This document shows, piece after piece, positions 29,177 to 45,475 of a stretch of DNA of 64,000 nt. Origin of the DNA: Deltaproteobacteria bacterium (GTDB taxonomy: Bacteria > Bdellovibrionota_F > JAHFAK01); NCBI GenBank assembly GCA_023250585.1, contig JAHFAK010000001.1, positions 24,054 to 88,053 on the forward strand. The letters run 5' to 3'. Each line of letters opens with the position of its first letter. Position 1 is the first letter of the stretch. Made by a program: the position numbers and the translations under genes. The notes beneath the pieces were generated by a model. The model worked only from the letters and a program-made list of their open reading frames with translations, did no database searches and was not told the origin of the DNA.

Positions 29177-30457
29177 TTATTTCTTTAGTATTGAACTATC
29201 GAGACAATGAACTTGAGGCATTGGAACAATAAACTTTCCACCTTCTTTAAGGAATTGAAATTCTCTCTTAATCATTTCATCCATAAAGAAGTATGGCAGA
29301 ACGAGAAAATAATCAGGTTTCTTCATACGAGCTTCTTCTTCTGAAATAATAGGAATGTTCGAACCAACCGTCCAGCAGCCAGCTTTATGAGAGTTACGAT
29401 CAGCAGCGTATGGAATATCATGAACGGTTAAACTACAATACTGAAGTATAACATTTCCTTTACTTGAAGCACCATATACAAAAGTTTTTTTACCTTTTTT
29501 ATTTTCAGTTCTAATAAACGTTGTCAGTTTATCGCGAATTCGTTCCGAATTTTCACGGAATTTTTTATAGGGTTCTTCTTCGTCTAATTTTAGTTTTTTT
29601 TCTTCATTAAAAAAAGTATTGAGACGAACGTTTGCTTCCGCTGAAGGTTCAGAGCCCTCTTTTTTACGAAGATAAAATCGGTAGCTACTACCATTTACTG
29701 TATTTTTTTCCATATCTACAATTTTTAATCCATGACGTTCAACAAGATAACGAAAAGGTCGGATATGATAGTATTCCAAATGTTCATGAAAAATTTGATC
29801 GAACATATTTTGTTCTAGCATCTCAGGAAGGTCAGCCATTTGAACCACCCACACTCCATCGGTATGCAAAATTGAAGCAATATCAGAAACAAAAGTATTC
29901 GGATCATCTAAATCATAAAACATTGCGATACTTGTAATAACTTTTGCTTTTTTTGTAGGACACGCCTTTTCAAATGATCTTCTATTAAAAAAATCCACAA
30001 CTCGTCTGAAATTTTCTTTCTCACCTCGTATATTTTCAACAGGATCAAATCCTATTCGATCGATAAAATTCTGTGTATAACTATTTAAAAGTGTCCCATC
30101 GTTACAGCCAATATCAACTACCGTATCACCAGGAATAAGGTCCACAAAATGCCCCGCGCCCTCAATAACATCTTTGAGAGCATCACGCATCGTCTGATTT
30201 ATACCCGAACGATACCAATATTCTCGGTAGATAAGATCTCCTGGAAACGTATGACGAAGCTGAACAAGCCCACACGCATTCTTATTTTTTGCAGGATTAC
30301 AGCGAACAACTTCAATTGGCACTGCTTGAGAAGGATAACGATCCTGATTCTCATGACTAACGGTGACTGAGGCTAACAGCTGACTTCCCAAGTTGATTAC
30401 TGGAGTTAACTCTTTTGATCCGCAAATCCGACACGAATCAATTGCTTTAATATTCAT
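29177..30457 (-). CDS. NDP-sugar C-methyltransferase-like protein
   Basis: A 426-residue protein of the three-domain sugar C-methyltransferase family. It has an N-terminal zinc-site-like CRICGSKELTPVINLGSQ (10-27), a SAM domain with PGDTVVDIGCNDGTLLNSY (about 118-136), the active-site stretch QIFHEHLEYYHIRPF, and a C-terminal domain FVYGASSKGNVILQYC. Known relatives add a methyl group to C3 of keto-deoxy sugars (TylC3, EryBIII). The last residues, HCLDSSILKK, recur as a remnant at 45476-45508. The 3' end is two bases from the GMD-like gene. Confidence 0.82.
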   Translation of the reverse strand: MNIKAIDSCRICGSKELTPVINLGSQLLASVTVSHENQDRYPSQAVPIEVVRCNPAKNKNACGLVQLRHTFPGDLIYREYWYRSGINQTMRDALKDVIEGAGHFVDLIPGDTVVDIGCNDGTLLNSYTQNFIDRIGFDPVENIRGEKENFRRVVDFFNRRSFEKACPTKKAKVITSIAMFYDLDDPNTFVSDIASILHTDGVWVVQMADLPEMLEQNMFDQIFHEHLEYYHIRPFRYLVERHGLKIVDMEKNTVNGSSYRFYLRKKEGSEPSAEANVRLNTFFNEEKKLKLDEEEPYKKFRENSERIRDKLTTFIRTENKKGKKTFVYGASSKGNVILQYCSLTVHDIPYAADRNSHKAGCWTVGSNIPIISEEEARMKKPDYFLVLPYFFMDEMIKREFQFLKEGGKFIVPMPQVHCLDSSILKK

Positions 30458-31985
30458 AAACCTCCTTAATAAGTTTTGCTAATCGCACTGATGAACTCAC
30501 ATTTTGTACAAGCCCCGCATGACGGCAATAGAGAACTTGCTTATTTTTCAATTCAGTACGTATATTTTGATCTTCGAGCAATAAACGAATAGTAGGAATA
30601 AGTTTTTCTTTCTTTCTTACTGCCATCGCAGCCTCAAGAGTTGCATAATCCACAAGATCCTCTCTGTTTGTCAAATTAATAAAGATTAGAGGTTTCTCAA
30701 GTAAAATTGTTTCTAAGCCTGCAGTAGAATGTAACGTAATAACAACATCGGCTGCATTTAAAATTTCTCTTAAAGTTTTCTTTTGATCAATTAATATTTG
30801 TTTATTCTGATTAAGAAAGGATTGATGGACAGAATGATCTTCTTCCGGATGAAATCGTACAAACAATTTTATATCCTGTATCTTTTTTGGCACTTCATAT
30901 ACCGCTTGAAGGACATTCAGATATTCTGTATGAGTAATATATGATTCTAAAGAACCAATGCCTTCTGGGGCCAAAGGAATTGACAAAAAAACGACTAATG
31001 GAGTTTGATCAGAAAGACCTAGTTCTTGTCGTATTTTTTTGCGTCCTTCTTCATCATCTTGTTTATATTGATCAAAACGTGGATTCCCCGTAACAAAAAT
31101 TTTATCTTTGGAAATTCCATGCTTTTCGATGATTTCTGCTGACTGCGTGTCAAATGCTGCCACATAATCATGAGCTAGAAACCTCCATTCACTGTCAGCA
31201 GCACAAACACTTCCATACTGAAGACACAGAGAAGGAATTCCAAAAGAACGCCCAATGAGCGCAAAACTTTTTGCCTCAAAATCTGCGGGATCTGTTGTCA
31301 CAATTATTGAAGGCTTTGTTTGGCTCAACATGATATCGGCAAGGAGAAGAGATCGTACACAATGGACTGCTTTTTTTCTAAACCATGCTTCAAAACCTGA
31401 CCAAATACGTCCATTGAGTTGCAGACGCGCTTTTCGTTTCCAATAACTCATTAACTGCCGTGTTTCTTTTATTAGTCGTTTTATGTAGGTAACATCTCGA
31501 AGCGTAGTCCAATCACTATAATAAGCATTCTGATGAAGAACTTGAGCGTCTTTGGGTAAGGCTGCTTTACTTACGATACCGATTTTTAATTTTTCAGATT
31601 TCAACAATTCACGGATTACGGGAGCTATACTTTCATGCTGCCGGCTAACGTTACAAACAAAAAGGATGTTAGTCTGTAACGATGAATGCTTATGTTCTAT
31701 ACTTTTAGCTGCTAATGCTACTTCACGAATAAACCACATGAGATTGAACAAAAAATATTTTGAAGACGATTCTACATTCCTACCTAACGCTTCTTCTTTT
31801 AATACTTTTCGAAGATAATATATGACGAGAGAAGATGCCCCTGCTTCAAAGACCGTTGTTCCTTGAATATGAGGCGCAACGGTATCATTTTTAATTGTAT
31901 CAAGAAAAGTAAGCATTACATCCTCTGCTTTTCGAGAAAAATCAAACTCAGAAAGAGCATCTTTTATACTAGTCATTGTAGGCAT
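30447..31985 (-). CDS. Large GT-B-type glycosyltransferase-like protein (polysialyl/CDP-glycerol transferase fold)
   Basis: A 512-residue soluble protein not matching a well-known family closely. The second half looks like a GT-B donor domain: CLQYGSVCAADSEW, DKIFVTGNPRFDQY, TPLVVFLSIPLAPEG, KLFVRFHPEEDHSV and ADVVITLHSTAGLETILLEKPLIFINL. The FHPxE and STAGLE motifs resemble those in capsule polymer synthases and 2-epimerase-fold transferases. The first third is helical. It probably transfers a sugar or phospho-alcohol unit. Its 3' end overlaps the C-methyltransferase start by 11 bp. Confidence 0.65.
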   Translation of the reverse strand: MPTMTSIKDALSEFDFSRKAEDVMLTFLDTIKNDTVAPHIQGTTVFEAGASSLVIYYLRKVLKEEALGRNVESSSKYFLFNLMWFIREVALAAKSIEHKHSSLQTNILFVCNVSRQHESIAPVIRELLKSEKLKIGIVSKAALPKDAQVLHQNAYYSDWTTLRDVTYIKRLIKETRQLMSYWKRKARLQLNGRIWSGFEAWFRKKAVHCVRSLLLADIMLSQTKPSIIVTTDPADFEAKSFALIGRSFGIPSLCLQYGSVCAADSEWRFLAHDYVAAFDTQSAEIIEKHGISKDKIFVTGNPRFDQYKQDDEEGRKKIRQELGLSDQTPLVVFLSIPLAPEGIGSLESYITHTEYLNVLQAVYEVPKKIQDIKLFVRFHPEEDHSVHQSFLNQNKQILIDQKKTLREILNAADVVITLHSTAGLETILLEKPLIFINLTNREDLVDYATLEAAMAVRKKEKLIPTIRLLLEDQNIRTELKNKQVLYCRHAGLVQNVSSSVRLAKLIKEVYEY

Positions 31986-31990
31986 CTCAA

Positions 31991-33544
31991 TTATTGTTTA
32001 GGTAAATACAACTGAAGGCTTTTCATAAAATCACCAGTAGAAATTTCTTCTTTCAATTCATAATTGCGAGTAATTGATTCCATCAAAGTTGGAATATAAG
32101 GAGCTATTACTTTTGACATGTTCTTTTGTGCAAAAAACCTTCCTTCTTCAAGAACAATGATGGAATATTTTTTAGCTTCAATATTATTTTTCAAAATTTT
32201 TTCGTTTGCCAAATGATGTGTTTCAACAAATGTTTCATCTAAGCTGGGTTTGAACGCATACATCTCCATATTAAGCCGTGGTTCATTAATTATTGTTTCA
32301 TTTGCTAAAACTGGAGTAAATGAAAGCATAACTCCTCTTTGGTTGTGTGTATATGAATTAATTTTTGCCCCAACTTTTCTAATAATTGCAAGGTCAGATT
32401 GAAAATAATTAGTTTTTAAAAACTCTCCTGTTGAAGCAAGAGGCGCTCCTAAAAATAGTAAAAAAAACAATATAAAAACATTTGGCGTCCGTGGTCCGGA
32501 TTGATCCATTAATTTATTAATTAAAGCTAAACATAAAATCATGATAAATGGGAAAGTATAGAGTTTTGTTGGCGGATAATCAGCTATAGTTTGATAATAA
32601 AATGAAAAACTGAGTAAAATCATTATAGAAACATAAGAAAATGCTACGGTATGCTCAGAAGATAATTTTTTTTCGTAATTCTCTTTATTTTTTTTGTCTT
32701 TCAGCCAGGAAAAAGCGAGATATCCCATAGAAAAAAAGGCCAAAATATTATAAGGATACAAACTGTCAAACTCTTCGAATCTTAGATTCAAGAAAGTACG
32801 TACTATCGATGAAAGGTTCTTGTTATCTATTTTTACTGAAGACTGATCAATATTAAATCGAATAGTATCGAAGAAAATATTTATATCTCCAAAAAAAATT
32901 GAATACTTAAAAATATAACAAAGCCCAATAAACGTTGCTGCAAAAATTGCGCCAAGAATGGCAAAATCCTTTCGAAATTTAATACAAAGAATTATAACGA
33001 GACCGAGAATAAACATAGTCTGATAATCAACAAGATAACGATTTGAAATAAGGAAAAAATTAATCAGAAGAAACCAAAATACTTTCCAATGTTTTTGCCA
33101 GGAGCTGAGAAGAACTAATAATGAAAGAGTTCTCAATAAAGCATTCAAAGAATATGTTGTATTTGTTAAAAAACTATATAATCCCATCGGAATTAAAAAT
33201 GAAGTATAACTGAGTATAATCGACTGAATATTGCTAAATAATTTATATACAACAAGAGCCTGAATATTGATGAGTAAAATAAAAAATACTAATGAAATAA
33301 TTCTTCCTGTTAAAAAAGAAGCCCCAAAAATTTTAAATAAAGTTCCATAGAGCTCAATATGTAATGGCAATCGATGATAGAAAAAATCGATATAGGGATA
33401 CATTCCTTTGGAAAATAGCAATGCTCCATGATAATACCAATTTTCATCGTTCCAAAATCGACAATGATAGATCCAGAAAAAACCAAACAATATAAAAAAT
33501 AAATTAATCCCTAGAAAAAGAAAAACTTTTGACTGTTTTATCAT
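31991..33544 (-). CDS. Polytopic membrane glycosyltransferase (GT39-like)
   Basis: A 517-residue integral membrane protein with about 11 hydrophobic segments. The first periplasmic loop after helix 1 reads YHCRFWNDENWYYHGALLFSKGMYPYIDFFYHRLP, placing acidic residues (NDE) where GT-C enzymes have the catalytic acid. The C-terminal 140 residues are a soluble periplasmic domain. It is likely to use a polyprenyl-phosphate-linked sugar. A DPM1-like GT2 gene at 35012-35758 in the same block could supply that donor, repeating the pairing seen at 15.8-18.0 kb. Confidence 0.7.
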   Translation of the reverse strand: MIKQSKVFLFLGINLFFILFGFFWIYHCRFWNDENWYYHGALLFSKGMYPYIDFFYHRLPLHIELYGTLFKIFGASFLTGRIISLVFFILLINIQALVVYKLFSNIQSIILSYTSFLIPMGLYSFLTNTTYSLNALLRTLSLLVLLSSWQKHWKVFWFLLINFFLISNRYLVDYQTMFILGLVIILCIKFRKDFAILGAIFAATFIGLCYIFKYSIFFGDINIFFDTIRFNIDQSSVKIDNKNLSSIVRTFLNLRFEEFDSLYPYNILAFFSMGYLAFSWLKDKKNKENYEKKLSSEHTVAFSYVSIMILLSFSFYYQTIADYPPTKLYTFPFIMILCLALINKLMDQSGPRTPNVFILFFLLFLGAPLASTGEFLKTNYFQSDLAIIRKVGAKINSYTHNQRGVMLSFTPVLANETIINEPRLNMEMYAFKPSLDETFVETHHLANEKILKNNIEAKKYSIIVLEEGRFFAQKNMSKVIAPYIPTLMESITRNYELKEEISTGDFMKSLQLYLPKQ

Positions 33545-34164
33545 AGAATAAATTGAATAGAAACGATTTGCGTTTCCAGATATTTTTCGGGCATTTCTTG
33601 AAAAATCTCAATGTTTGCAGATTCTTGTAATTCATGCTCAATCTTCTTAATTTCATCTTGTGCTAAATAAAGCAAAAGACGCCCCGTTTTTTTAAGATAT
33701 TGTGGAGATTGCTTAATAAATAAAAGAATCAATGAAAGCCTTTCTTGTCCAAAGAATAATTTTACAAATGGAATTGCCATTCCCACGAGCAGCGGATGTC
33801 TTCTTACAAAACTACCTATATGATTTATAAAGGCATTATTCGGAATTCTTGGTGGATTGAAAACAATAAGATCATAAGTCGCTTTTACATGATCAAAGAG
33901 AGAAGAGTAATAGATATTCAAAGCTATACCATTTCTTTGAGCATTCTCTCTTGTATTTTTGAGAGCCTTTTCATTCACATCAACAGCATCTACATCAAAA
34001 CCAAGCTTTGCAAGATAAATCGCAATATAGCCTGTGCCTGTCCCCATATCAAGAGCTTTCCCACGTGGAAACAGAGAAGCTGTTTTAGCTAACAGAAAAG
34101 TATCTTCTGCCGGTTGGCAGACTCCGGGAAATTCTATAATTTTAATTTCATCTTTGATCGACAT
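33541..34164 (-). CDS. SAM-dependent methyltransferase (PrmC/HemK-like small domain)
   Basis: A 207-residue class I methyltransferase: EDTFLLAKTA, GKALDMGTGTGYIAIYLAKLGFDVDAVDVNEKAL (motifs I and II), and the NPPY-type FNPPRIPN at about 108-115, as in enzymes methylating planar nitrogen or glutamine. There is no peptide-chain-release-factor N-terminal domain, so it is not PrmC itself. It overlaps the following membrane transferase gene by ATGA and follows the YdjC gene by five bases. It likely methylates a sugar or amino group of the glycan. Confidence 0.78.
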   Translation of the reverse strand: MSIKDEIKIIEFPGVCQPAEDTFLLAKTASLFPRGKALDMGTGTGYIAIYLAKLGFDVDAVDVNEKALKNTRENAQRNGIALNIYYSSLFDHVKATYDLIVFNPPRIPNNAFINHIGSFVRRHPLLVGMAIPFVKLFFGQERLSLILLFIKQSPQYLKKTGRLLLYLAQDEIKKIEHELQESANIEIFQEMPEKYLETQIVSIQFIL

Positions 34165-34169
34165 ACATC

Positions 34170-35015
34170 TTAAATGAGCGTTACATTAAATTTTCGTACA
34201 ACGTCTAATGTCTCCTTAGCCGTTATAGCGCGAAGTTCTTCCTCTCGCATGTCGGTCCAAAAATCATACTCTTTAAGATCATTATCAACATATCCGGGAT
34301 GGCAGACTATTTCAGAAACACCTTGAGGGATATTTTTTATATAATGATACAGCGCTTCTTTATAGTATCCCTTAGGAACATAGCCCACACCAAAGACATG
34401 CCCCGCGTTATTCAAATTACTCATAGGACGCTGTAATGGAGATGCAATTTTAGAAAGAATCAACTGTTTCACAAATCCAATATATATTCCTTTTCGAAAC
34501 AGAATTTGTTTTTTATAGAATGATCCTCTCCATAATCCTAAAGAAACACTTCGGATTCTACGGATTCCAAACCGCGAAGAAAGTCCCAAAAGCACTCGTC
34601 CAATTGCAGGATGAAAATGAATATGCCGATGTGAATCTATATGTTCTAGATTAATTCCGCTTTCAATCACTCTTTCAATTTGTGCACTGAATTCCTTCTC
34701 AACTTCTCTTAATGAAATACGTCCTAAGAAAAGTCGAGACATAAAACGAGAAAGCGAATAAAAAGTATTATTCTTATCAAGAAGGCTTGAGATTTCTCTA
34801 GGAGAAGATAGAGAGCTCCCACACGTAATATTTAAATGAAGACCTACCGATAAATCAGGTTCCTTCTTGAGCAGTTGTACACTTTTCTCAAAGCCTGGTA
34901 TATTAGACATCAATGAAGTACTTCTCACAATTCCATTGCGAAAACATTCAATGATACCTGCGTTAATTCCCTCAGAAATACCAAAATCATCTGCGTTTAC
35001 AATGAGTTTTTTCAT
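34170..35015 (-). CDS. YdjC/ChbG-family carbohydrate deacetylase
   Basis: A 281-residue protein with the YdjC signature: VNADDFGISEGINAGI (6-21) with the metal aspartates, VGLHLNITCG (about 57-66), HIDSHRHIHFHP (about 124-135) and CHPGYVD near the end. Family members remove N-acetyl groups from sugars in a divalent-metal-dependent way (ChbG, HpnK). It overlaps the DPM1-like GT2 gene by ATGA. This pairing resembles glycolipid pathways in which a lipid-linked N-acetyl sugar is deacetylated before transfer. Confidence 0.83.
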   Translation of the reverse strand: MKKLIVNADDFGISEGINAGIIECFRNGIVRSTSLMSNIPGFEKSVQLLKKEPDLSVGLHLNITCGSSLSSPREISSLLDKNNTFYSLSRFMSRLFLGRISLREVEKEFSAQIERVIESGINLEHIDSHRHIHFHPAIGRVLLGLSSRFGIRRIRSVSLGLWRGSFYKKQILFRKGIYIGFVKQLILSKIASPLQRPMSNLNNAGHVFGVGYVPKGYYKEALYHYIKNIPQGVSEIVCHPGYVDNDLKEYDFWTDMREEELRAITAKETLDVVRKFNVTLI

Positions 35016-35758
35016 TTATAATAACCCTGATGATCGTTTCGTTTAACTTTCCAAAGATCTCGCAACATTCTGACTGTATCTTGAAAAAAATTCACTGTTG
35101 ATTTTTCATGAAAATAACGAAATCGTATGGGGACTTGATGAATAATAAATCCTAATTTTTTTGCAACGTACAAAGCTTCAACGTCGAAACTAAATCTCTC
35201 CAACGTTTGTTTTGTAAAAATAGCCTGTGCTGCTTCCTTTCGGAAACCTTTCAATCCCGCTTGTGTATCAAGCAATTCGGGTAAAAGCCACAGCCGCACT
35301 AATAGATTAAAAAAGCGGCCCATTAAATGTCTTGTATAGAGATAACGAAAGAAAACCGGACTGATTTCATAGCGAGATTCCGGAAGTACACGGCATGCAA
35401 TGGCAACATCTGCGCCCTTCTCTAACACCTCCAGAATTCTAAAAATTTGATCGGGCTGATATGCTAAATCTGAATCGTTAAAGACAAGATACCGTCCACG
35501 AGCTTCTCCAAATCCATGTCGAATTGCATATCCCTTACCACGATTTTTTCTGTTAGAAACAACTTTAATGTTTTGGTACTTCTCTGTAATACGGTTCAAT
35601 ACAGAAAGAGAATTATCATAACTACCATCATCCACGAGAATCAATTCCCATGGATAATGCTGTTTTTCTAACTGTTCCACTAATAAAGCAACATTTCCTT
35701 CAATAAACTCTGAAGCATTAAAAACTGGAACTACAACTGATAAGTGTATAGTACTCAT
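35012..35758 (-). CDS. GT2 glycosyltransferase, polyprenyl-phosphate sugar synthase-like
   Basis: A 248-residue GT-A enzyme. It shows LSVVVPVFNASEFIEGNV, LVDDGSYDNS (about 40-49), NRKNRGKGYAIRHGFGEARG and FNDSDLAYQP in place of the DxD, followed by SRYEISPVFFRYLYTRHLMGR and DTQAGLKGFRKEAA, typical of dolichyl-phosphate beta-glucosyltransferases. It has no membrane domain. It likely charges a polyprenyl phosphate with a hexose for the membrane transferase encoded three genes downstream. Confidence 0.83.
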   Translation of the reverse strand: MSTIHLSVVVPVFNASEFIEGNVALLVEQLEKQHYPWELILVDDGSYDNSLSVLNRITEKYQNIKVVSNRKNRGKGYAIRHGFGEARGRYLVFNDSDLAYQPDQIFRILEVLEKGADVAIACRVLPESRYEISPVFFRYLYTRHLMGRFFNLLVRLWLLPELLDTQAGLKGFRKEAAQAIFTKQTLERFSFDVEALYVAKKLGFIIHQVPIRFRYFHEKSTVNFFQDTVRMLRDLWKVKRNDHQGYYK

Positions 35759-35768
35759 ACTAATCTAT

Positions 35769-36689
35769 CTAACTCCAATCATGATCATTGTAAAAAGATC
35801 GAGAGATAGGCTCTACCTCACGTCGAATTCGGTCTATCTCAGCAGCAGTAAGTCTACTTTTCCAAATATCAACTGTTTTACGACTATCTCTTCTACTATT
35901 ATCTTTTTTTCCATGAAATTCTACTACATTTAATGGAGAAGTATAAAGATTCATTATCTCTTCTGTTTTCTTTGTAAATGATAGATTGAATTTCTCGTAA
36001 AGTTTTCTAAATTCCTCAATAGGTGCAGAGGCTAAATCCTCATGTCTAACAAAAATCCATTCAGGATGTTCCCTTGTAAGAATTTCAACCGTTCCATACA
36101 GAGCTTTCCATTGAAGAATTCCCATACCTATAATATCAGGTCTTTGAGGATGATTTTGAATTTCTTTCTCAAATCTAAATAAATATCTTTTCATTAAATT
36201 TTTCTGATCAAGAAAATGATTAAAGTTAAATCCCCAATTAAGACGTTTTAAGCTACTTACGAAGGATGCTGGGTGTCTTATAACAACGATAACATGCGTA
36301 TTAAATTTTTTAGCAAACCATTCGGTAGAAAAAAGACCAATAGGTTCGATAAAAATCTGCGGAAATCTAGAATTAAACTGGCGAAACAGAGATCTAAATT
36401 TTCTTTTGGTTACACGTCCAAAATCTCGGAGTGATTCTATTTTGCTCAGGCTTTTAAAAAAATCATACTTCATATCCACACACTTTTGGATATAGGGATA
36501 AAATTGCTTCTCGTTTTCCTGAGAGATATAGGTGTACATCCATGGAAAAGGTTGACATCCAATCTCTGAAGCAACATTAAAAATTTCCTCATCTCGCATA
36601 AGAAATTCTCCTGAGATAGAAAGCATTCTTCCAACCCAGCTTGAACCAGATCGATGTGATCCTGTAATGTAGATATGTTTTTTTATCAT
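35769..36689 (-). CDS. PAPS-dependent sulfotransferase family protein
   Basis: A 306-residue protein. The 5'-phosphosulfate-binding loop is ITGSHRSGSSWVGRML (8-23). The 3'-phosphate site is VIVVIRHPASFVSSLKRLNW (133-152), with the conserved Arg and Ser. C-terminal helices contain FVRHEDLASAPIEEFRKLYEKF. This layout is that of cytosolic carbohydrate sulfotransferases that move sulfate from PAPS to a sugar hydroxyl. It lies 19 bp after the pyruvate kinase-ATP sulfurylase gene, and CysQ, which removes the PAP by-product, is encoded near the start of the same operon. The glycan acceptor is not known. Confidence 0.85.
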   Translation of the reverse strand: MIKKHIYITGSHRSGSSWVGRMLSISGEFLMRDEEIFNVASEIGCQPFPWMYTYISQENEKQFYPYIQKCVDMKYDFFKSLSKIESLRDFGRVTKRKFRSLFRQFNSRFPQIFIEPIGLFSTEWFAKKFNTHVIVVIRHPASFVSSLKRLNWGFNFNHFLDQKNLMKRYLFRFEKEIQNHPQRPDIIGMGILQWKALYGTVEILTREHPEWIFVRHEDLASAPIEEFRKLYEKFNLSFTKKTEEIMNLYTSPLNVVEFHGKKDNSRRDSRKTVDIWKSRLTAAEIDRIRREVEPISRSFYNDHDWS

Positions 36690-36708
36690 TACAAAAAAGA
36701 GCCTTTGC

Positions 36709-38889
36709 TTATGCTACAAAAATTTCCTCTCCTCTCTCAATTTCCTCTAATAAAAAAGTTGATATCTCTTTTCTCATAAACCAATCAGGAAGCTCTTTTC
36801 CTGATTTGAGCATTTCACGCGCTTCACTGCCACTGATTAAACGCATATTTTTTTCATCATGATTACATTTTTCTACATAGCGATTGCACTGCTGACAGTA
36901 AGAAATAGTGTCAAAAAATACAGGCGTTATTCCCAAATCCCCCATACTCTTAAATAGTTCTTGAGAAGCATGAGTACCATAGAAATTACCAACGCCTGTA
37001 TGATCTCTTCCCATAATAAAATGAGTACATCCAAAGTTTTTCCTACAAAGAGCAGTAAAAACAGCCTCACGTGGTCCCGCATATCGTGAATAGGTAGAAA
37101 ATGCTCCGATCAATACTTTTTCTTTAGGGTAATAAGTATTAAGCAACTTCTCATAACTTTGTATAATAGCATGACTGACAAAATCACCTTTCTTTTTGAT
37201 ACCTATTACTGGATGAACAAAAAGGCCATCGCATGAAGTACGTTCCAGCGCTAGAATTTGTAATGTTTCATGGGCTCTATGAACAACATTTCTTGTATGG
37301 AAACCAACAACTCGGCTCCATCCTTTATGTTCAAAAAGGGCCCGCGTTTGCAAAGGAGTGAATTCATATTGTTTGTTCATACGTGGAAGACGTTTTATCA
37401 ATTCAACTTTTCCACCAATGAAATAATTGTCTTTTCCGAAGAGAGCTGCAACTCCTGGATGCGCTTTATCTTGTGTTCCAAACATCATTTGAGATAATTC
37501 CGTGAGGTCATAGGGGTAAATTTCCTCTATCTCAATCGTAGCAACAATATCCTGCGAGGATTGAAGAGCTAAACTCACTATAGTTCCTTCATGAAATTTT
37601 GTTGCTTCTTCTTTACTCACTTGCAATAAAATAGGAAGAGGCCATGCAACCCCGTTAGAAAGTTTATAATCATGCAAAACACTCGTAAGTTCTTCTCGAT
37701 TCATAAAACCTTGTAATGGCGAAAAAGAACCAAGAGCAATTTGCTCTGCATCCATCAGTATTTTTTCGTCAACAATTAAGCGTGGGTACTGATTAAGCAG
37801 AGTTTTATCACACTCTTGAGCAATACGATACGTAAGTATTCCTCCATGTGGCTTGATCAAAAATCGAGAATGATCATCCAGAAGTTTTCCAAAGGAAACT
37901 TTTCGATTGGAGCTCTCAAATTCATTTATAAGAGAAACAACAACCGCTGCACAATCAACGGGATGTTGACCAATAGCAGTTTCAGCAGCGAGGACTAAAC
38001 CGTCAGCTCCATCAAGTAAAGTATTGATAACATCGTTAACTTCTGCTCGTGTTGGTTTCCTCTTTTGTGTCATAGACTCTAATAAGTTTGTAGCTACATA
38101 AATCGGTTTACCAGCAGAATTTGCTCGTTGAATAAGAAGCTTCTGAAGAAAAGGAATTTTTTCGATGGGAACTTCGCGAGAGAGATCTCCTCTATCGATG
38201 AGGAGCGCGTCAGCAAGCGTCACAATAGCATCAACATTTTTTACACCCTGCCTGCTTTCAATTTTTGCAATAATTCTGGCCTGTGCACCAACGAGTTCTC
38301 TCATTTCCGAAACAGCTTCTTTACTCGATGCAAAGGAAAGAGCAAAATTGGTTATGCCATATTTTTTGGATAACGTCATGACTTCTTTGTCTTTTTTAGA
38401 AAGAACAGGAAGCATAATATCTTGATCAACAGTAACTGCTTTATTACTTCCGACAATACCTCCGCAAAGCACTCGTGCTTTTAATGAACCACCATTTTTT
38501 TCAATGACCTGTAAAAAGAGAGAATTAAAATCAACATTAATGAGACTACCTATTTCTATTTTTTCTACTACAAATCCTGGAGTAAGTGAAATAGTATGTT
38601 CATCACAAATGATATTTTCACTTACAATATCAACTATATCTCCTTCTTTTAGATAAATTTCTCCGCCTTTTACACTTCTATTCCTAATTTGAGCTCCTTC
38701 GGTATCAATACATATTGGTTTTTTCGTGTATTGACCAATGGTCTGCATCATTTTTTCAGCTACATTGATATCAACATGTGAAAGATTAATACGAAAGAGA
38801 TCTACTCCAAGCGCGTCTAAACGTTGAATAACAATTTTATCCAACGAAGCAGGCCCAATAGTTGCTAATATTTGAAGTTTTTTTATCAT
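36709..38889 (-). CDS. Pyruvate kinase-like domain fused to ATP sulfurylase
   Basis: A 726-residue fusion. The start at ATG 38887-38889 has GGAG at good spacing and overlaps the upstream stop (ATGA). Residues 1-326 are a pyruvate kinase barrel plus B domain: RINLS (33-37), DTEG (62-65, usually DTKG), KIE (209-211), RGD (233-235), Thr267 in ATNLLESM, and PTRAEVNDV. The PK C-terminal regulatory domain is missing. Residues about 336-726 are ATP sulfurylase: GSFSPLQGFM, the nucleotide motif HTRNVVHRAHE (531-541), GRDHTGVG (627-634) and a zinc knuckle Cys665/668/675, His677. The sulfurylase makes APS from sulfate and ATP. The kinase half might regenerate ATP from PEP (inference). The sulfotransferase gene follows directly. 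Confidence 0.9.
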   Translation of the reverse strand: MIKKLQILATIGPASLDKIVIQRLDALGVDLFRINLSHVDINVAEKMMQTIGQYTKKPICIDTEGAQIRNRSVKGGEIYLKEGDIVDIVSENIICDEHTISLTPGFVVEKIEIGSLINVDFNSLFLQVIEKNGGSLKARVLCGGIVGSNKAVTVDQDIMLPVLSKKDKEVMTLSKKYGITNFALSFASSKEAVSEMRELVGAQARIIAKIESRQGVKNVDAIVTLADALLIDRGDLSREVPIEKIPFLQKLLIQRANSAGKPIYVATNLLESMTQKRKPTRAEVNDVINTLLDGADGLVLAAETAIGQHPVDCAAVVVSLINEFESSNRKVSFGKLLDDHSRFLIKPHGGILTYRIAQECDKTLLNQYPRLIVDEKILMDAEQIALGSFSPLQGFMNREELTSVLHDYKLSNGVAWPLPILLQVSKEEATKFHEGTIVSLALQSSQDIVATIEIEEIYPYDLTELSQMMFGTQDKAHPGVAALFGKDNYFIGGKVELIKRLPRMNKQYEFTPLQTRALFEHKGWSRVVGFHTRNVVHRAHETLQILALERTSCDGLFVHPVIGIKKKGDFVSHAIIQSYEKLLNTYYPKEKVLIGAFSTYSRYAGPREAVFTALCRKNFGCTHFIMGRDHTGVGNFYGTHASQELFKSMGDLGITPVFFDTISYCQQCNRYVEKCNHDEKNMRLISGSEAREMLKSGKELPDWFMRKEISTFLLEEIERGEEIFVA

Positions 38890-39668
38890 ATAATACTCCA
38901 TCCTCCATCTACAACTAAATTATGTCCCGTAACATAGGCTGAGGCATCCGAAGCTAAGAAAATTGCTGCACCTACTATTTCTTCTGCAGATGCCATTCGT
39001 TGTAACGGTGTTTTTTTAATATAATTTTTTACGAAACTTTGAGGTTGTGAATCAAAAATTCCACCAGGAGAAATTGCATTTACTCTCACTCCATGGTTAC
39101 CGTAATATGATGCTAAATATTTTGTAAATTGGATAACACCCCCTTTGATTGCGGCATACGCAGCTGGCATAGTCATATCTGTTCCTTCATAGATTGAAAA
39201 ATCAGGGGCAACAATTCCATAAATTGAAGCAATATTTATAATAGATCCTTTTTTTGCTTCTTTCATTATTTCGGTAACTTTTTGGCAGCAGAGGCAATAC
39301 CCATTTAAATGTTTATTGATATTCTCTTGCCACGAATTAAACGGAATTTTTTCAAATGATACTCCCCAATCTTTTGTCCGAGGATATGCATTATTTATCC
39401 ATACATCAATTCGTCCTTCTTCTTTGAGAATTTGTGTTACTCCGTTAATAACAGATTTTTCATCGGCAATATCTAATAAAAGAAAGCGTGCAGTATAGCC
39501 ATCTTTTTTTAATTCTTCACAAGCTCTTATCCCCTTTTCTTCATCGATCTCTGCGATGATCACTTGTGCTCCATACGAAGCAAATCCTCGGGCAAATGCT
39601 TTTCCCAAAAGGCCTCCCCCTCCAGTTATGACAGTTACCTTATGAGTTAAATCAAATAAATTTTTCAT
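38886..39668 (-). CDS. ptmA: SDR oxidoreductase, PtmA-like
   Basis: A 260-residue classical SDR: VTVITGGGGLLGKAFARGFASYGAQVII (11-38), DVWINNAYPR, SIINIASIYG, the catalytic Tyr/Lys in AAYAAIKGGVIQF, AISPGGIFDSQP and VTGHNLVVDGGWSII. The GGGGLLGKA loop and the WINNAYPR segment match PtmA, which accompanies legionaminic-acid genes in Campylobacter. There it belongs to the part supplying the GDP-glucosamine branch or modifying the nonulosonate; the exact step is not settled. It overlaps the CMP-transferase gene by ATGA. Confidence 0.78.
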   Translation of the reverse strand: MKNLFDLTHKVTVITGGGGLLGKAFARGFASYGAQVIIAEIDEEKGIRACEELKKDGYTARFLLLDIADEKSVINGVTQILKEEGRIDVWINNAYPRTKDWGVSFEKIPFNSWQENINKHLNGYCLCCQKVTEIMKEAKKGSIINIASIYGIVAPDFSIYEGTDMTMPAAYAAIKGGVIQFTKYLASYYGNHGVRVNAISPGGIFDSQPQSFVKNYIKKTPLQRMASAEEIVGAAIFLASDASAYVTGHNLVVDGGWSII

Positions 39669-40372
39669 AGAGTTGTGTATCCTTTCTCGATCAAAAATTC
39701 GACAAAGTGAAAATCAATCTCACGGTCTATATCAAAACCTGAAACATCCGGCATACAATACACAATTGAATTATCGGTGATGACCGATGTATTTTCTTTG
39801 AGAAAAAAATTCCGGGAATAAAAATAAATCGAGGCGTTCATATCATAAACTTTCGGAGCATCTTGCCTTCGATGAGTAGCATGCGTTAATGACTTTGAAA
39901 GATGCGCTCGTCCGTTTCGATCAAGTTCTACCATATTAAAATATGGATTTTTATGAGAAGGTACAACGCTAAATAAATTTTCAGGTTTTTCTTTAAGAAA
40001 TAACTGATAACAATTTTCCAAATCCTTTGTAGTTCTTAAAGGAGACGTAGCATCGAGATCAACGACTATATCGTACTTCTCATTAAATATTTTTTCGGAT
40101 TCTAATACTGCATGATGAATGACGGCTAATTTATCCGCAGTATCACTTGCCAAATCTTTCGGACGCTCGAAAGGCACTTCTGCTCCAAAATCTTTCGCAA
40201 CAGCTGCGATATCTTTCGAATCAGTACTGACAATAATGCGCATTGCTCGTTCCCAGCTTTTAGCTTGAGTAATACTATACGCAATAAGCGGTTTACCTAA
40301 AAGATTCCGAATATTTTTTCCCGGAACTCCTTTAGAGCCACCGCGAGCACATATAGTCACCAGAATATTCAT
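39665..40372 (-). CDS. legF: CMP-nonulosonate cytidylyltransferase (CMP-legionaminate synthase-like)
   Basis: A 235-residue NeuA-family protein: VTICARGGSKGVPGKNIRNLLGKPLIAYSI (5-34) carries the nucleotide loop, followed by IVSTDSKDIAAVA, ERPKDLASDTADKL, VDLDATSPLRTTKD and MNASIYFYSR. These are CMP-sialate/CMP-legionaminate synthetase motifs. It activates the nonulosonic acid made by the NeuB-type synthase encoded at 42.0-43.0 kb. The other legionaminate-route genes further upstream favour legionaminic over sialic acid. Confidence 0.87.
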   Translation of the reverse strand: MNILVTICARGGSKGVPGKNIRNLLGKPLIAYSITQAKSWERAMRIIVSTDSKDIAAVAKDFGAEVPFERPKDLASDTADKLAVIHHAVLESEKIFNEKYDIVVDLDATSPLRTTKDLENCYQLFLKEKPENLFSVVPSHKNPYFNMVELDRNGRAHLSKSLTHATHRRQDAPKVYDMNASIYFYSRNFFLKENTSVITDNSIVYCMPDVSGFDIDREIDFHFVEFLIEKGYTTL

Positions 40373-40375
40373 ACT

Positions 40376-41113
40376 CTAAAAGAAAATAAGACTTACACCA
40401 AAAAGAAGAATAAAGAAAGTCATCATATGTTGATATACAGGTTCAGAAGATCTGGTAAAAACTCGTCTACCAATACTATAGTAAACTGCTATAGTTAAGA
40501 TTGGTAAAATAAGCATACGGGCTTCGATTATTTCGGACTTAAAAATAAGCAAAGGAATTAACTGGCTGAAAGCAAAAAAGAAATAAGCCCCAGCAATCGC
40601 AAAGCGAATCTTTTCTTTTCCTGTATAGAGGGTACTTGCAAAAATAGTAAGAAGCCCACCTCCCATATTAGTCAGACCATGAATGAATCCCATAATGCCA
40701 AGATAAACATTGCGATATTTTTTTACTCCTTTTTGAAGCCACATATTTAAGAAGGAATTAATTCGGCTCAATGCATTAAAAAGAAGTAGCAACCCAATAG
40801 GAACTCGTGCATTATATGAATGCTCTTCTAAAAGTACAAAAAGTAATCCCACAAAAAGAAGTGGTAGAGAAATTAAAAAAAATCTTCGTGTTTCAGGCGG
40901 AATCTTTTCTCCTACTCTTCTTCCCTCAAATACTTGAAGAATACTCAAAACAAGCGAGCATGGAAGAAGATACATAAGCGCTTGTAAGAATGGAATACCA
41001 AGAAGTAAAAGCAATGGAGTACCAAAGACTAACAGTCCTACCCCAAAAAGAGACTGAATAAAGGAACAAAAAATAACAATAGGGATAACGAAAAAAAATA
41101 GGTCATTTGTCAT
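40376..41113 (-). CDS. TauE/SafE (TSUP) family membrane transporter
   Basis: A 245-residue membrane protein with eight hydrophobic segments and the family signature SFIQSLFGVGLLVFGTPLLLLLG near the N-terminus, repeated as GFIHGLTNMGGGLLTIFAS in the second half. TSUP proteins move sulfite, sulfonates, sulfoacetate or thiosulfate. It sits between the CMP-transferase and Gfo/Idh genes of the nonulosonate block and in the same operon as sulfate-activating, sulfotransferase and sulfoquinovose genes. A sulfur substrate is therefore attractive but unproven. I recall TSUP genes in other NeuB-type clusters. Confidence 0.8.
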   Translation of the reverse strand: MTNDLFFFVIPIVIFCSFIQSLFGVGLLVFGTPLLLLLGIPFLQALMYLLPCSLVLSILQVFEGRRVGEKIPPETRRFFLISLPLLFVGLLFVLLEEHSYNARVPIGLLLLFNALSRINSFLNMWLQKGVKKYRNVYLGIMGFIHGLTNMGGGLLTIFASTLYTGKEKIRFAIAGAYFFFAFSQLIPLLIFKSEIIEARMLILPILTIAVYYSIGRRVFTRSSEPVYQHMMTFFILLFGVSLIFF

Positions 41114-41125
41114 AATATTTTTTCT

Positions 41126-42013
41126 TTAGATTGCGAAGCTCTTTTCTCTAAATGAAAGTAACTTTCTAAAAAGGTTGCTTGCTTCGCAAAGATTATTCAT
41201 CATTCGAGTGTCTTTTCTATGATCAATGAAATATTCTAATTGCTCACGATAGAGAATATCTCTGTCTCTTCCATCGAGGAGATTTGCTTCTAAAATTTCT
41301 GACTCCGTTTCAATAACAATTTTTCTTTCCGATTCTTTTGAAGCAATATCAATAATAACTTCTGCCTCTCCATGGCGAGTTTCAACCCGTGCTTCAACAA
41401 AATCTTCAGCATCGATAGTAACATTACTTCGTTTTTCTAATCGTCCTTCTATTTTTTCAATAGGTCCCATGATATAGGAAACAAGATCAAATTCATGAGA
41501 TACATCAAGGAGAGCGCCTCCTCCTCGAATACTCGAGGCAGAATACGATTCAAGATGATTCAATTCAGGTCTCCAGTCAGGAAGATATGATCGACACATA
41601 AATTTTGCTCTTCGAATCTTTCTACCCCGAACTTTTTCTTTAAGCGATTTCACCTCTGGATGAAATCGCAAGACATACGCAACATAAGTAGGAACGCTAT
41701 GCTTCTCAACAAGAGAAATGAGTGTGTCTAAGTTCTCAAGCGATGCGCTAATTGGCTTTTCGAGAAAAATGGGAATATTCTGTTCAGCGCAGCGTAGAGC
41801 TGTTTCAATATGCTGATCCGTTGGATTTGTGATAAGTGCACTCTCTACTTCCCATGAATCCAATTCATTCCATGAATTAACTTCAGGAATTCCTAACGTA
41901 TTCTTAAATCCCTTTTTGCCAGAACGAAAAGCAATTACCTCATGGCCCATATCAAGAAGAAGACGCACATGCCTTGTACCAATAGAGCCAAGACCAAAAA
42001 TCATTGCTTTCAT
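41126..42013 (-). CDS. Gfo/Idh/MocA-family oxidoreductase
   Basis: About 295 residues from ATG 42011-42013, which overlaps the legI stop (ATGA); a further ATG at 42031 is possible. It has N-terminal Rossmann MKAMIFGLGSIGTRHVRLLLDMGH, ITNPTDQHIETALRCAEQ, the catalytic EKP in PIFLEKPISASLEN, and GGGALLDVSHEFDLVSYIMG with the DxxxH pair. This family performs NAD(P)-linked oxidation or reduction of sugars. In Campylobacter, PtmF of this kind accompanies legionaminic-acid genes, making a role in that branch plausible. Confidence 0.83.
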   Translation of the reverse strand: MKAMIFGLGSIGTRHVRLLLDMGHEVIAFRSGKKGFKNTLGIPEVNSWNELDSWEVESALITNPTDQHIETALRCAEQNIPIFLEKPISASLENLDTLISLVEKHSVPTYVAYVLRFHPEVKSLKEKVRGRKIRRAKFMCRSYLPDWRPELNHLESYSASSIRGGGALLDVSHEFDLVSYIMGPIEKIEGRLEKRSNVTIDAEDFVEARVETRHGEAEVIIDIASKESERKIVIETESEILEANLLDGRDRDILYREQLEYFIDHRKDTRMMNNLCEASNLFRKLLSFREKSFAI

Positions 42014-43047
42014 TTTTCGAGTAACTCCCATGACACTAAATCATCAGCTTCAACATCATATTTTAAACGTTTGCCAATAACATCATCAAAAACTTCTGGA
42101 GGAAGACCTTTGCCTGGACGCTTAATCACAACGTTGCTTTCTGAAAGAATTGTTCCTGCTTTAAGAGAGGAAGAAAACACAAGACTCCTTTGAGCAACCG
42201 TTTTATTTTCAATTTCTCCTTTTTCGAGTTTTTTGACTCCATCGCCCATTGCCTTTTCAATATTGCGAATCGCTTCTACCATCATTTTCAATTCATGAGG
42301 TTCCAGAGATGCTTTATGATCGGGACCTTCAAGATTTTTATCTAAAGTACAATGTTTTTCAATGACTGTAGCTCCTAAGGCTGTAGCAGCTATTGAAACT
42401 TCAATTCCTGCAGTATGATCTGAATAACCCACAGGAAGATTGAAATGTTTCTGCAATGTTTTTATCGCTCGAAGATTTACTTCTTCATACGGACAAGGAT
42501 AATTAGTTGTACAATGAAGTAAGGTGATATCCTCACAATATTCTTTGAGCGTCCTAATTGCTTTTTGCACATCATCAAGTGTCGTCATACCTGTAGATAC
42601 AATTATCGGTTTTCCTTTTTTTGCAACATACGTAAGGAAAGGAAAATTCACACAGTCACCTGAAGAAATTTTGTATCGATCAACAAGAGGCTCTAAAAAA
42701 TCAACTGAATCCGTATCAAAAGGAGTAGCAAGAAAAATAATTCCTTTTTGGTCAGCATATTTTTTTAAGAAAATGAAATCATCTCGTGATAATTCTAACT
42801 TCTTAAGCATCTCATATTGAGAGATATTTGATTCTCGAGTATTGATCTTTTGATAGTGAGCTTTCTCAGCATTAAACGTTACAAGCTTTCGAGCAGTGAA
42901 GGCTTGAAATTTTATTGCATCCGCTTGCGCATCTTTTGCAGAATCAATTAATCGGCAGGCAAGATCCCGGTTACCGTTATGATTAACACCCGCTTCTGCT
43001 ATGATAAAGACTTTAGAGTTTTGTTTGGACACGACAGGGATTTCCAA
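42010..43047 (-). CDS. legI: Nonulosonic (N,N'-diacetyllegionaminic) acid synthase, NeuB family
   Basis: A 345-residue protein. It has an N-terminal TIM barrel (FIIAEAGVNHNGNRDLACRLIDSAK, DAIKFQAFTA, KISSGDCVNFPFL, STGMTTLDDVQKAI, GYSDHTAGIEVSIAAT, EKHCTLDKNLEGPDHKASL) and a C-terminal antifreeze-like SAF domain (about 280-345: RSLVFSSSLKAGTILSESNV and KRPGKGLPPEVF). It condenses PEP with a 6-deoxy-mannosamine-type sugar. The annotated start is TTG at 43045-43047; a GTG at 43032 is an alternative. Either overlaps the end of the NeuD-like gene. It pairs with the LegG-type epimerase at 49.4-50.6 kb. Confidence 0.88.
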   Translation of the reverse strand: MEIPVVSKQNSKVFIIAEAGVNHNGNRDLACRLIDSAKDAQADAIKFQAFTARKLVTFNAEKAHYQKINTRESNISQYEMLKKLELSRDDFIFLKKYADQKGIIFLATPFDTDSVDFLEPLVDRYKISSGDCVNFPFLTYVAKKGKPIIVSTGMTTLDDVQKAIRTLKEYCEDITLLHCTTNYPCPYEEVNLRAIKTLQKHFNLPVGYSDHTAGIEVSIAATALGATVIEKHCTLDKNLEGPDHKASLEPHELKMMVEAIRNIEKAMGDGVKKLEKGEIENKTVAQRSLVFSSSLKAGTILSESNVVIKRPGKGLPPEVFDDVIGKRLKYDVEADDLVSWELLEK

Positions 43048-43669
43048 ATGCTTTCGAATGCGCTGGAATATTTTTTATAACAACGCTTCCCGCTCCAATG
43101 AAACTTCGTTCGCCAATAACAATATTTTCAATAATAACGCTACCGGTGCCGATATGAGTTCCTGCACCGATGTGTACCCCTCCAGATAAAACTGATCCAG
43201 GAGCAATATGTACAAAATCTCCTATTATACAATCATGATCAATGCTTGAGCTCGTGTTAATTATCGCATGATTTCCAATTTTTGCTCCAGGTTGGATAAC
43301 AGATCCTGCAGTAACTAATACCCCTTCGCCAAATGAAACAGAGGATGCTACACGAGCTGATGAATGTATAATAGAGGGAAACTGAAAACCAATTTCTTTT
43401 AATCTTTTAAAAATTTCCTCTCGAATGTGAGATCCTTGAACAGAACCAACGGCAATGAAGGCTTGCTGAATTCCTTTACGAAAAAGCTCTTGTAAGAATT
43501 CGTCGCTGCCTATAACAGGAACTCCTTCAAGTGAAGTTCCAATAGACAATTTATTGTCTATTATACCAATAATACTAAACTGTGCCTCTGCACGCACAGT
43601 TTCAATAACTACTTTTGCGTGTCCACCGCCGCCAATTAAAATTATATCAGAGGATATTTGATCCGCCAT
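43013..43669 (-). CDS. NeuD/PglD-like left-handed beta-helix acyltransferase (probable LegH)
   Basis: A 218-residue protein with an N-terminal Rossmann-like domain (IILIGGGGHAKVVIETV) and then hexapeptide repeats from about 100 to 205 (GVLVTAGSVIQPGAKIGNHAIINTSSSIDHDCIIGDFVHIAPGS and onward). The SIDHDCxIGDFVHIAPG segment with the catalytic His is characteristic of PglD/NeuD. It would acetylate the 4-amino group of the dideoxy sugar made by LegB/LegC, filling the LegH step, or O-acetylate the finished nonulosonate. It overlaps the amidotransferase gene by 28 bp. Confidence 0.82.
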   Translation of the reverse strand: MADQISSDIILIGGGGHAKVVIETVRAEAQFSIIGIIDNKLSIGTSLEGVPVIGSDEFLQELFRKGIQQAFIAVGSVQGSHIREEIFKRLKEIGFQFPSIIHSSARVASSVSFGEGVLVTAGSVIQPGAKIGNHAIINTSSSIDHDCIIGDFVHIAPGSVLSGGVHIGAGTHIGTGSVIIENIVIGERSFIGAGSVVIKNIPAHSKAFGNPCRVQTKL

Positions 43670-44742
43670 GTATCGTTACTCTTTTCCCAAATGTTATGAT
43701 TTCTAAATCTCTCTACTGTTTCCCAAAATTCTTTTTCTGTGAGCATATGATAATCTAAAAAATCCTGATAATACTCTTTTGGAAATTGGCCTTGTAATTC
43801 GTTTACAATTTTAACTGCTTTCTGTCTCGTCATCCTTCCATTCCAAATTTGATAGCAACACTGATCAGTAGGACGCCAGAACCCAAATTTAATATACTTC
43901 ATCCAAATATTAATCTCGCATAACTTTTCATCAATATTATCGTAATTAATATAATTTCCTGAAAGTGGACCTTCTTTTCGTCCTTCGAAACCATATTTTT
44001 CAGCAAGATCGTAATGTTTTTTTCCATCCCAATTATCATAGTATCCAAGATAAATACTCTTAATTTTTCGTTCTTGTAATAACTCTTCTCTAGGATATTT
44101 AAAAAAGAACACATCTTTTTCGGTAATTTCATCATCAAGCCAATCAAATATTGTTTTATCTTTAATGAGATCGTTTTTATTGATATCAAGGGCATCTGCT
44201 TTTCGTATCGTTGACCTACCTCCAAATTCAACGGAGATATCTTCTCCCCATACTATGAGGGGAACATCATAAATTACGGCAACATTTACGACAGAAGCAA
44301 AGACTGCGCAATGCTCAGCCCAATTGGGCTCACCTTGTTTAACAAAAGCTTTTCTTCGAAGCTTGCGATAGGTACTCGGTTTCAAATTTACTTTAATATT
44401 GTCTACCTCTAAATTGGTAATCATGCTGTTGTAATTTGCGATTCCTTCTTCTGTAGGAAGATGTGCGGCTAAACAAACACTTAAAACATTCATCCCCATC
44501 TGTTTCATCATCCACACTTGGTATTGACTATCTTTTCCCCCACTCACAGGAACAATACAATCATAACAAGAAGTATTGGTTCGTTTTATTTCTTCACAAA
44601 TCTGTTCGAGTTCCGTACGGCGTGAATTCCAATCAATCTCTTTTTTTCTTTCAACAGAACGACAAGCGCTACACACGCCATCTGTATCCATTAAGACGCC
44701 AGGCTTCGTATCAGGCATTACACATCTGGTACAATATTTCAT
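43642..44742 (-). CDS. PP-loop N-acetyl-sugar amidotransferase (WbpG/PseA-like), copy A
   Basis: A 366-residue protein. A Cys4 zinc-ribbon (CTRC at 4-7, CSAC at 24-27) is followed by an intact ATP pyrophosphatase loop VPVSGGKDSQ (64-73), then HCAVFASVVNVAVIYDVPLIVWGEDISVEFGG and a C-terminal helical region with GRMTRQKAVKIVNE. Such enzymes convert a sugar N-acetyl group to acetamidino using ammonia supplied by HisH/HisF-like partners, which are present at 47.3-48.7 kb. The position beside NeuD and NeuB homologues suggests the nonulosonic acid or its precursor as substrate. Confidence 0.85.
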   Translation of the reverse strand: MKYCTRCVMPDTKPGVLMDTDGVCSACRSVERKKEIDWNSRRTELEQICEEIKRTNTSCYDCIVPVSGGKDSQYQVWMMKQMGMNVLSVCLAAHLPTEEGIANYNSMITNLEVDNIKVNLKPSTYRKLRRKAFVKQGEPNWAEHCAVFASVVNVAVIYDVPLIVWGEDISVEFGGRSTIRKADALDINKNDLIKDKTIFDWLDDEITEKDVFFFKYPREELLQERKIKSIYLGYYDNWDGKKHYDLAEKYGFEGRKEGPLSGNYINYDNIDEKLCEINIWMKYIKFGFWRPTDQCCYQIWNGRMTRQKAVKIVNELQGQFPKEYYQDFLDYHMLTEKEFWETVERFRNHNIWEKSNDTWRIKYPLI

Positions 44743-45002
44743 GTCTCTCCTTTAAACTTAAATTAAGTTTCTGCCTAATTGTGTTCAGATATGAATAATT
44801 CATCATCTCTCCATGTATATGGATTTTTAACAATATATTCTCTAATTGCTTCTAAAGATCTTTCATTTCGAATAATGTGCTCATAATAATTACGTTGCCA
44901 TAATCGTTTATCAAATTGTGGCCATTTATTTTTATGTACGTTCTCAATGTATTCTACCGTTGTAATTGATTTAAATGCACCAATAATATTTCCCAATGTC
45001 GG

Positions 45003-45029
45003 TGTAGGGGCGACCCTTGTGGTCGCCCT
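45003..45029 (+). repeat. REP-like palindrome 1 inside the RAYT gene
   Basis: A GC-rich perfect 8-bp stem GGGCGACC / GGTCGCCC with a CTTGT loop, preceded by a TGTAGGGG head. It stands out sharply from the AT-rich surroundings. It pairs with an inverted relative at 45064-45090. Confidence 0.8.
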
Positions 45030-45063
45030 CGTTGGAACCGTATGTATTTCTCGATCATGCAAT

Positions 45064-45090
45064 TGGGCAGGCACAAGGCCTGCCCCTACA
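45064..45090 (-). repeat. REP-like palindrome 2, inverted relative of palindrome 1
   Basis: Read on the minus strand it has the same TGTAGGGGC head and CTTGTG loop as palindrome 1, but the stem is GGGCAGGC / GCCTGCCC. Both stem arms changed together, which is compensatory variation and supports a selected hairpin. The two hairpins in opposite orientation make a BIME-like pair. Confidence 0.8.
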
Positions 45091-45475
45091 ATAATCCCGT
45101 GCATATGATTTGGCATTATTATAAATGCATCTAATTCCATATTAAATCTCTTTTTCAATTCCAACCAAAAATCCTTAATCATCTTTCCGATATCATTTAA
45201 GAACATTTCATTATTATTAATTTTACCAAATAAACATTCTCTATTCTGAACACACAACGTAACATAATAAAAACCATACTCTGAATAATCATACTGTTGT
45301 AATCGTATTGAACGACGGTGGTGTATATCAGGATTGTAGTTCATAGGTCTCCATTATGTATAATACACACTGAATGAGAGTCATTATTTGAGCAGATAAT
45401 TAGAAAAATAAATATAGGAAAGAAAGTAAAATTGAAAGATGTTCCATCTTCTATACTATTTGGGTAGAGTTTTTT

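Follow-up and report, generated by a model that had tools for sequence, protein, structure and literature searches.

A gene in the window, by which we mean the whole stretch of 64,000 nucleotides of a Deltaproteobacteria MAG that was analysed, encodes a pyruvate kinase (PK) barrel joined to a full ATP sulfurylase. It belongs to a family of genes that, judged by their neighbors, evidently serves sulfation. We give about an even chance to the reading that the product is a bifunctional sulfation enzyme, in which the PK half would drive the regeneration of ATP with PEP for PAPS synthesis. An earlier note on this DNA is supported in part. The fusion, its spread and its conserved residues have stood, while the view of a single fusion, the concern over a DTEG motif and the idea of a direct coupling have not.

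The fusion gene lies on the minus strand. The mechanical open reading frame, single and uninterrupted, covers 36709-38901 and encodes 730 aa. However, translation more likely starts at the ATG at 38889, since this codon overlaps the stop codon of the upstream gene (ATGA), is preceded by GGAG at ∼6 nt and gives a length that agrees with that of relatives; the nearest of these, L009 and L010, likewise have 726 aa. The gene is thus placed at 36709..38889 (726 aa), and the end coordinate of the earlier note, 38889, was the better choice. Residue numbers used here are nevertheless counted from the ATG at 38901. A Pfam search assigned residues 7-316 to the PK barrel (PF00224, E = 1.4e-69), 349-504 to PUA_2 (PF14306) and 511-719 to ATP-sulfurylase (PF01747, E = 3e-78), and found no PK C-terminal domain in the protein. 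A profile search of the chain found neither an APS kinase domain nor a GTPase domain of the CysDN type. The PK barrel, with its lid (B) domain, a linker and its catalytic residues, is encoded at 37858..38889, and the PUA_2 and catalytic domains of the sulfurylase at 36709..37857, where HTRNVVHRAHE and GRDHTG are intact. An AlphaFold model based on 46 family sequences is confident in both halves (mean pLDDT 90.8, pTM 0.84). In this predicted structure residues 6-335 superpose on solved PKs with Z of about 35-37, and residues 347-730 match ATP sulfurylases with Z of 49, an rmsd of 1.6 and 43% identity to 8a8g. Pfam, fold matches and motifs therefore bear out the description of one reading frame holding a PK barrel without C-domain and a full sulfurylase; all motifs that had been listed (KIE, RGD, ATNLLESM, DTEG, HTRNVVHRAHE, GRDHTG and the zinc Cys) are present.

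The earlier note had proposed to look for the same architecture in other genomes, its absence pointing to an artefact. A scan with an alignment of the PK half, using one genome per species, turned up 142 related places. We retained 80 of them and added two plasmids to make 82 loci. PK and sulfurylase share one frame at 68 of the 82. The other 14 comprise five stand-alone copies of Thermoplasmata type, seven other PK-only copies (one of them reaching a contig end), one gene truncated at a contig end and one whose frame is split. Carriers of the fusion span at least a dozen phyla, isolates among them, and by record title include Omnitrophota, Elusimicrobia, Planctomycetota, Pseudomonadota, Deltaproteobacteria, Bdellovibrionales, Chloroflexi, Actinomycetota, Gemmatimonadetes, Verrucomicrobia, Bacteroidetes, Marinimicrobia, KSB1 and Parcubacteria. 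Full-length fusions recur at 38-55% identity, also on complete isolate replicons: in Sinorhizobium chiapasense and Ensifer adhaerens the same full-length architecture lies on complete plasmids, at 44% identity, and it occurs as well in isolates of Mesorhizobium amorphae (chromosome), Methyloversatilis and Thauera. Two genomes of the window's own phylum were compared, and the only match in the second is a 401-aa frame over the sulfurylase half. These results confirm that the fusion is real and not an artefact.

The PK halves of 83 family members were compared with 28 ordinary PKs, with an alignment to solved PKs as the guide to residue positions. The counterparts of the residues that bind PEP, Mg, K+ and nucleotide are invariant or present in 82 of the 83. 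The roles of these residues are established from the rabbit and human enzymes. The conserved set in the family is R37, N39, S41, H42, D66, T67, R73, K154, K213, E215, D239 and T271; in rabbit numbering R72, N74, S76, D112, T113, R119, K206, K269, E271, D295 and T327 are present. The PEP- and ADP-binding residues are thus kept. Family PK halves also have a private signature in common (DTEGAQ, DRGDLSR, ATNLLESM and LAAET), and against the 28 ordinary PKs they differ at E68, A70 and Q71 of DTEGAQ and at L234, D236, S241, R242, N272, V303 and A305. Part of the invariance of E68 and Q71 follows from the scan pattern C[LI]DTEGAQ itself, although the four loci lacking this pattern still keep E and Q; D236, N272 and A305 belonged to none of the patterns used in that scan. 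Four of these substitutions, A to D236, Q to N272, S to A305 and M to V303, lie near catalytic residues in sequence, and several of the family-specific positions are presumably, as in the rabbit enzyme, arranged around the enolpyruvate methylene.

The window fusion scores 270.8 bits against TIGR01064, under the cut-off of 306.4. In a quick tree of 77 family members and 14 ordinary PKs from carrier genomes, the family forms one side of a single branch with an SH-aLRT of 100, so by this tree it is a monophyletic PK clade, apparently one that is undescribed. The loop that reads DTEGAQ in the fusion family is DTKGPE or DLQGPK in ordinary PKs. K+-dependent PKs have the signature T113/K114/E117 and K+-independent ones L113/Q114/K117 (PMC8835810); with T, E and Q at 113, 114 and 117 the family has neither. 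The change from DTKG to DTEG, which the earlier note had singled out, is present but is by itself no sign of a dead PK, since the rabbit K114Q mutant is near wild type (PMC8835810) and active archaeal PKs carry other residues at position 117 (PMC4374775); DTEGAQ is rather the signature of the family itself. Where decay is seen in relatives, it affects the sulfurylase half and not the PK half.

The sulfurylase half of the window protein contains the active-site motifs TRNxxHRxHE and GRDH and scores 344.9 against TIGR00339, above the cut-off of 322.95. Its CxxC...CxxH motif is not shared by all relatives, being missing in the Sinorhizobium members. The protein reads FHTRN (H535) at a place where the solved bacterial, archaeal and Aquifex sulfurylases in the alignment have FQTRN, and 63 of 69 fused members have H at this position. 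We take the Gln of FQTRN to be a sulfate contact, so its replacement by H535 may alter sulfate binding.

For a comparison of gene context, the carrier genomes also supplied 28 ordinary-PK loci of about the same length. A sulfotransferase is found at 41 of the 82 family loci versus none of the 28 controls, APS kinase at 41 of 82 versus 1 of 28, and one or the other near 67 of 82 versus 1 of 28. The APS kinase gene abuts or overlaps the family gene at 36 loci, and sulfotransferases are the most frequent Pfam family among the closest neighbors. At L065 (4106-7312), in a MAG of candidate division KSB1, sulfotransferase, PK and ATP sulfurylase are fused in one protein of 1069 aa. In the window, all on the minus strand, the next gene downstream encodes a sulfotransferase (PF13469/PF00685; 35769..36689) and begins ∼20 bp past the fusion. 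A short-chain dehydrogenase gene lies directly upstream (38886..39668), its stop overlapping the fusion start, and at 40376..41113 is a TauE/SafE-family membrane protein that may be a sulfate or sulfite carrier. A surface-polysaccharide run (29177..44742) with NeuB, a cytidylyltransferase, a glycosyltransferase, methyltransferases and YdjC surrounds the fusion. The contig also encodes, at a distance of ∼55 kb and again among polysaccharide genes, a Sat-APS kinase fusion. The fusion that the earlier note had treated as a single oddity is thus real but a member of a broad sulfation-linked family, with APS kinase and sulfotransferase neighbors. We rejected sulfate reduction as the pathway in the window MAG, where the search for it gave just a marginal match to a PAPS-reductase domain (E = 9e-4). 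Two other observations concern these surroundings. A gene for an antiporter of the Na_H_Exchanger family recurs near the fusion in lineages as distant as rhizobia, Thauera, Planctomycetota and Chloroflexi (L007, L013, L015, L019, L026, L027, L030, L066, L076 and others), and an ORF that borders the polysaccharide cluster in the window (44775-45344) resembles by eye a REP-associated (Y1-type) transposase.

We propose that the PK barrel would transfer phosphate from PEP to ADP and so form ATP beside the sulfurylase, which would convert ATP and sulfate to APS. APS kinase would then spend a second ATP and free ADP, and this ADP would go back to the PK half. In relatives the APS kinase is often the next gene; in the window genome it would be the Sat-APS kinase fusion found ∼55 kb away. 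PAPS would pass to the adjacent sulfotransferase for the sulfation of a surface glycan. The PK half would hold ATP high and ADP low, with PEP paying for sulfate activation, and since the C-domain is gone it would escape the control of a housekeeping PK. Turnover by the PK half, the local recycling of ATP and the nature of the sulfated product are inferred. PEP-driven ATP supply, suggested in the earlier note, stays the best reading, but it would need no direct chemical link between PEP and the formation of APS. Synthesis of PAPS in vitro requires recycling by PK and PEP, and omitting PK nearly abolishes it (PMC9885120). Sulfurylase fusions that aid the energetics are known with pyrophosphatase and with APS kinase (PMC2275785, PMC4220642).

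The two halves co-evolve, as their distances are correlated (r = 0.76, Mantel p = 0.0005), and each is subject to purifying selection. For the pairs that permit an estimate, dN/dS is <0.3 in both halves and usually lower in the PK half; in a Thauera pair it is 0.08 for PK versus 0.29 for the sulfurylase half. Six members (L013, L027, L030, L066, L076 and L081) have lost the sulfurylase active-site motifs while their PK residues are intact, and in L034 the sulfurylase half is truncated beside an intact PK half. The scattered tree positions of these members suggest several independent losses. Decay of the sulfurylase next to an intact PK half means that the latter has a role of its own, which outlives the neighboring sulfurylase. 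Together with the stand-alone PK copies, the sulfurylase-dead members indicate that ATP supply in cis is not the whole story.

Stand-alone family members were found on two contigs of marine phages, L151 and L152 (1247-3270), and in SAR11 (L087, 9651-11002). At all three places the PK-like gene is accompanied by a mini nucleotidyltransferase of 120 aa (HxGH...ISATxxR). On L152 the order is sulfotransferase, PK-like gene and mini nucleotidyltransferase, with 2OG-Fe(II) oxygenase genes nearby, and the PK-like gene occupies the usual place of an APS-kinase-like gene. The mini nucleotidyltransferase is widespread in phages. Among 84 loci with it, most have an APS-kinase-like P-loop kinase adjacent or fused to it and about half have a sulfotransferase; the mini protein is possibly an ATP sulfurylase reduced to a minimum. 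Neither the window protein by itself nor the PK-half alignment A2 gave matches when viral sequences were scanned, and later alignments found the phage members. Matches in annotated phage records had <35% identity and were taken for ordinary PKs, and a Foldseek search of predicted structures from viruses returned nothing that matched the full PK domain. Separately, a cassette of sulfotransferase, APS-kinase-like P-loop kinase and mini nucleotidyltransferase, the last two sometimes fused, is frequent in phages (L160-L239; L240, 2593-3330) and is possibly a minimal phage PAPS synthase.

Two main doubts about ATP regeneration leave room for a changed substrate: the family-specific substitutions close to the active site, and the fact that the PK half survives where the sulfurylase is no longer active. 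The PK-like barrel would then be an active, sulfation-specific phosphotransferase that uses PEP or a PEP-like donor, or an acceptor other than ADP. Such a PEP-linked enzyme with a rebuilt pocket would perform its own sulfation chemistry, alone in some archaea, SAR11 and marine phages and fused to sulfurylase elsewhere. The strictly conserved family-specific substitutions beside catalytic residues, the retention of the PK half where the sulfurylase decays, the stand-alone copies beside sulfation genes in archaea, SAR11 and phages, and the position of the gene in L152 all agree with this. We nevertheless consider it somewhat unlikely, because all known residues for PEP, metal, K+ and ADP are kept. 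A PEP-dependent replacement of APS kinase is weakened in particular: it would be redundant, as 41 of 42 carrier genomes already have APS kinase and its gene is adjacent at the 36 loci mentioned.

It is quite improbable, in our analysis, that the PK-like half acts as a sensor, or as a module for regulation and oligomerization, that would tune the sulfurylase by binding PEP or nucleotides. Fungal ATP sulfurylase offers a precedent in its fused APS-kinase-like domain, which is regulatory and non-catalytic, and the allosteric C-domain is missing here. However, a pure sensor would not be expected to keep a full set of catalytic residues invariant over great distances, nor to persist beside a decayed sulfurylase. 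That the fusion is simply the housekeeping PK of the window genome, fused by happenstance, we consider very unlikely. A search of the window MAG found no second PK and no PPDK_N match, as this explanation would have it, but this assembly is a draft. Most of the 42 carrier genomes hold a second PK, of the ordinary kind, that scores far better against PF00224, which argues that the family PK is specialized, and the family genes sit in sulfation clusters. Although the window comes from a draft MAG of 164 contigs, an assembly artefact or a chance read-through of two genes is ruled out for practical purposes by the identical architecture in complete replicons and isolates.

The earlier note knew of no characterization of this fusion, and our full-text literature search, which covered published papers that are open without subscription, likewise found none that describes a PK-sulfurylase fusion. 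Sulfate activation is among the least favorable steps of metabolism, and cells are known to meet its cost by removing products or by burning GTP. This widespread fusion, which appears to supply the sulfurylase with ATP made from PEP, would be a further way to do so. Since the fusion lies beside sulfate-transfer genes in many phyla, PEP, a fuel from sugar breakdown, may pay for the costly sulfation of surface sugars. The fusion would be the marker of a sulfation module that many bacterial phyla share and that has stand-alone relatives in archaea and phages, and it might be a ready-made enzyme for PAPS regeneration. Direct testing is feasible because cultured isolates carry it.

Compared with known systems, the PK half resembles pyruvate kinase (EC 2.7.1.40; PF00224, TIGR01064) in its barrel and lid, its fold and its residues for PEP, Mg, K+ and ADP, but differs in lacking a C-domain, in being fused to a sulfurylase, in scoring below the TIGR01064 cut-off and in forming a separate clade. 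The other half has the fold of Sat-type ATP sulfurylase (PF01747/PF14306; 8a8g, Methanothermococcus), its HxxRxH/HxxE and GRDH motifs and a score above the TIGR00339 cut-off, but has FHTRN for FQTRN and is placed behind a PK barrel. As in Sat-APS kinase, the PAPS synthetase of Aquifex, fungi and animals, a sulfurylase is joined in one chain to a second enzyme that aids the formation of PAPS; here, however, the partner is PK, and APS kinase is a neighboring or distant gene. In the APS kinase-sulfurylase-pyrophosphatase of diatoms, haptophytes and oomycetes the partner is also thought to pull the unfavorable sulfurylase reaction (PMC2275785, PMC4220642), but there the product PPi is removed, while PK would supply ATP and remove ADP. 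The proposed logic is the same as that of PK/PEP-coupled PAPS synthesis in vitro, where PK recycles the ADP of APS kinase (PMC9885120); that system, unlike the fusion, is an engineered mix of separate enzymes.
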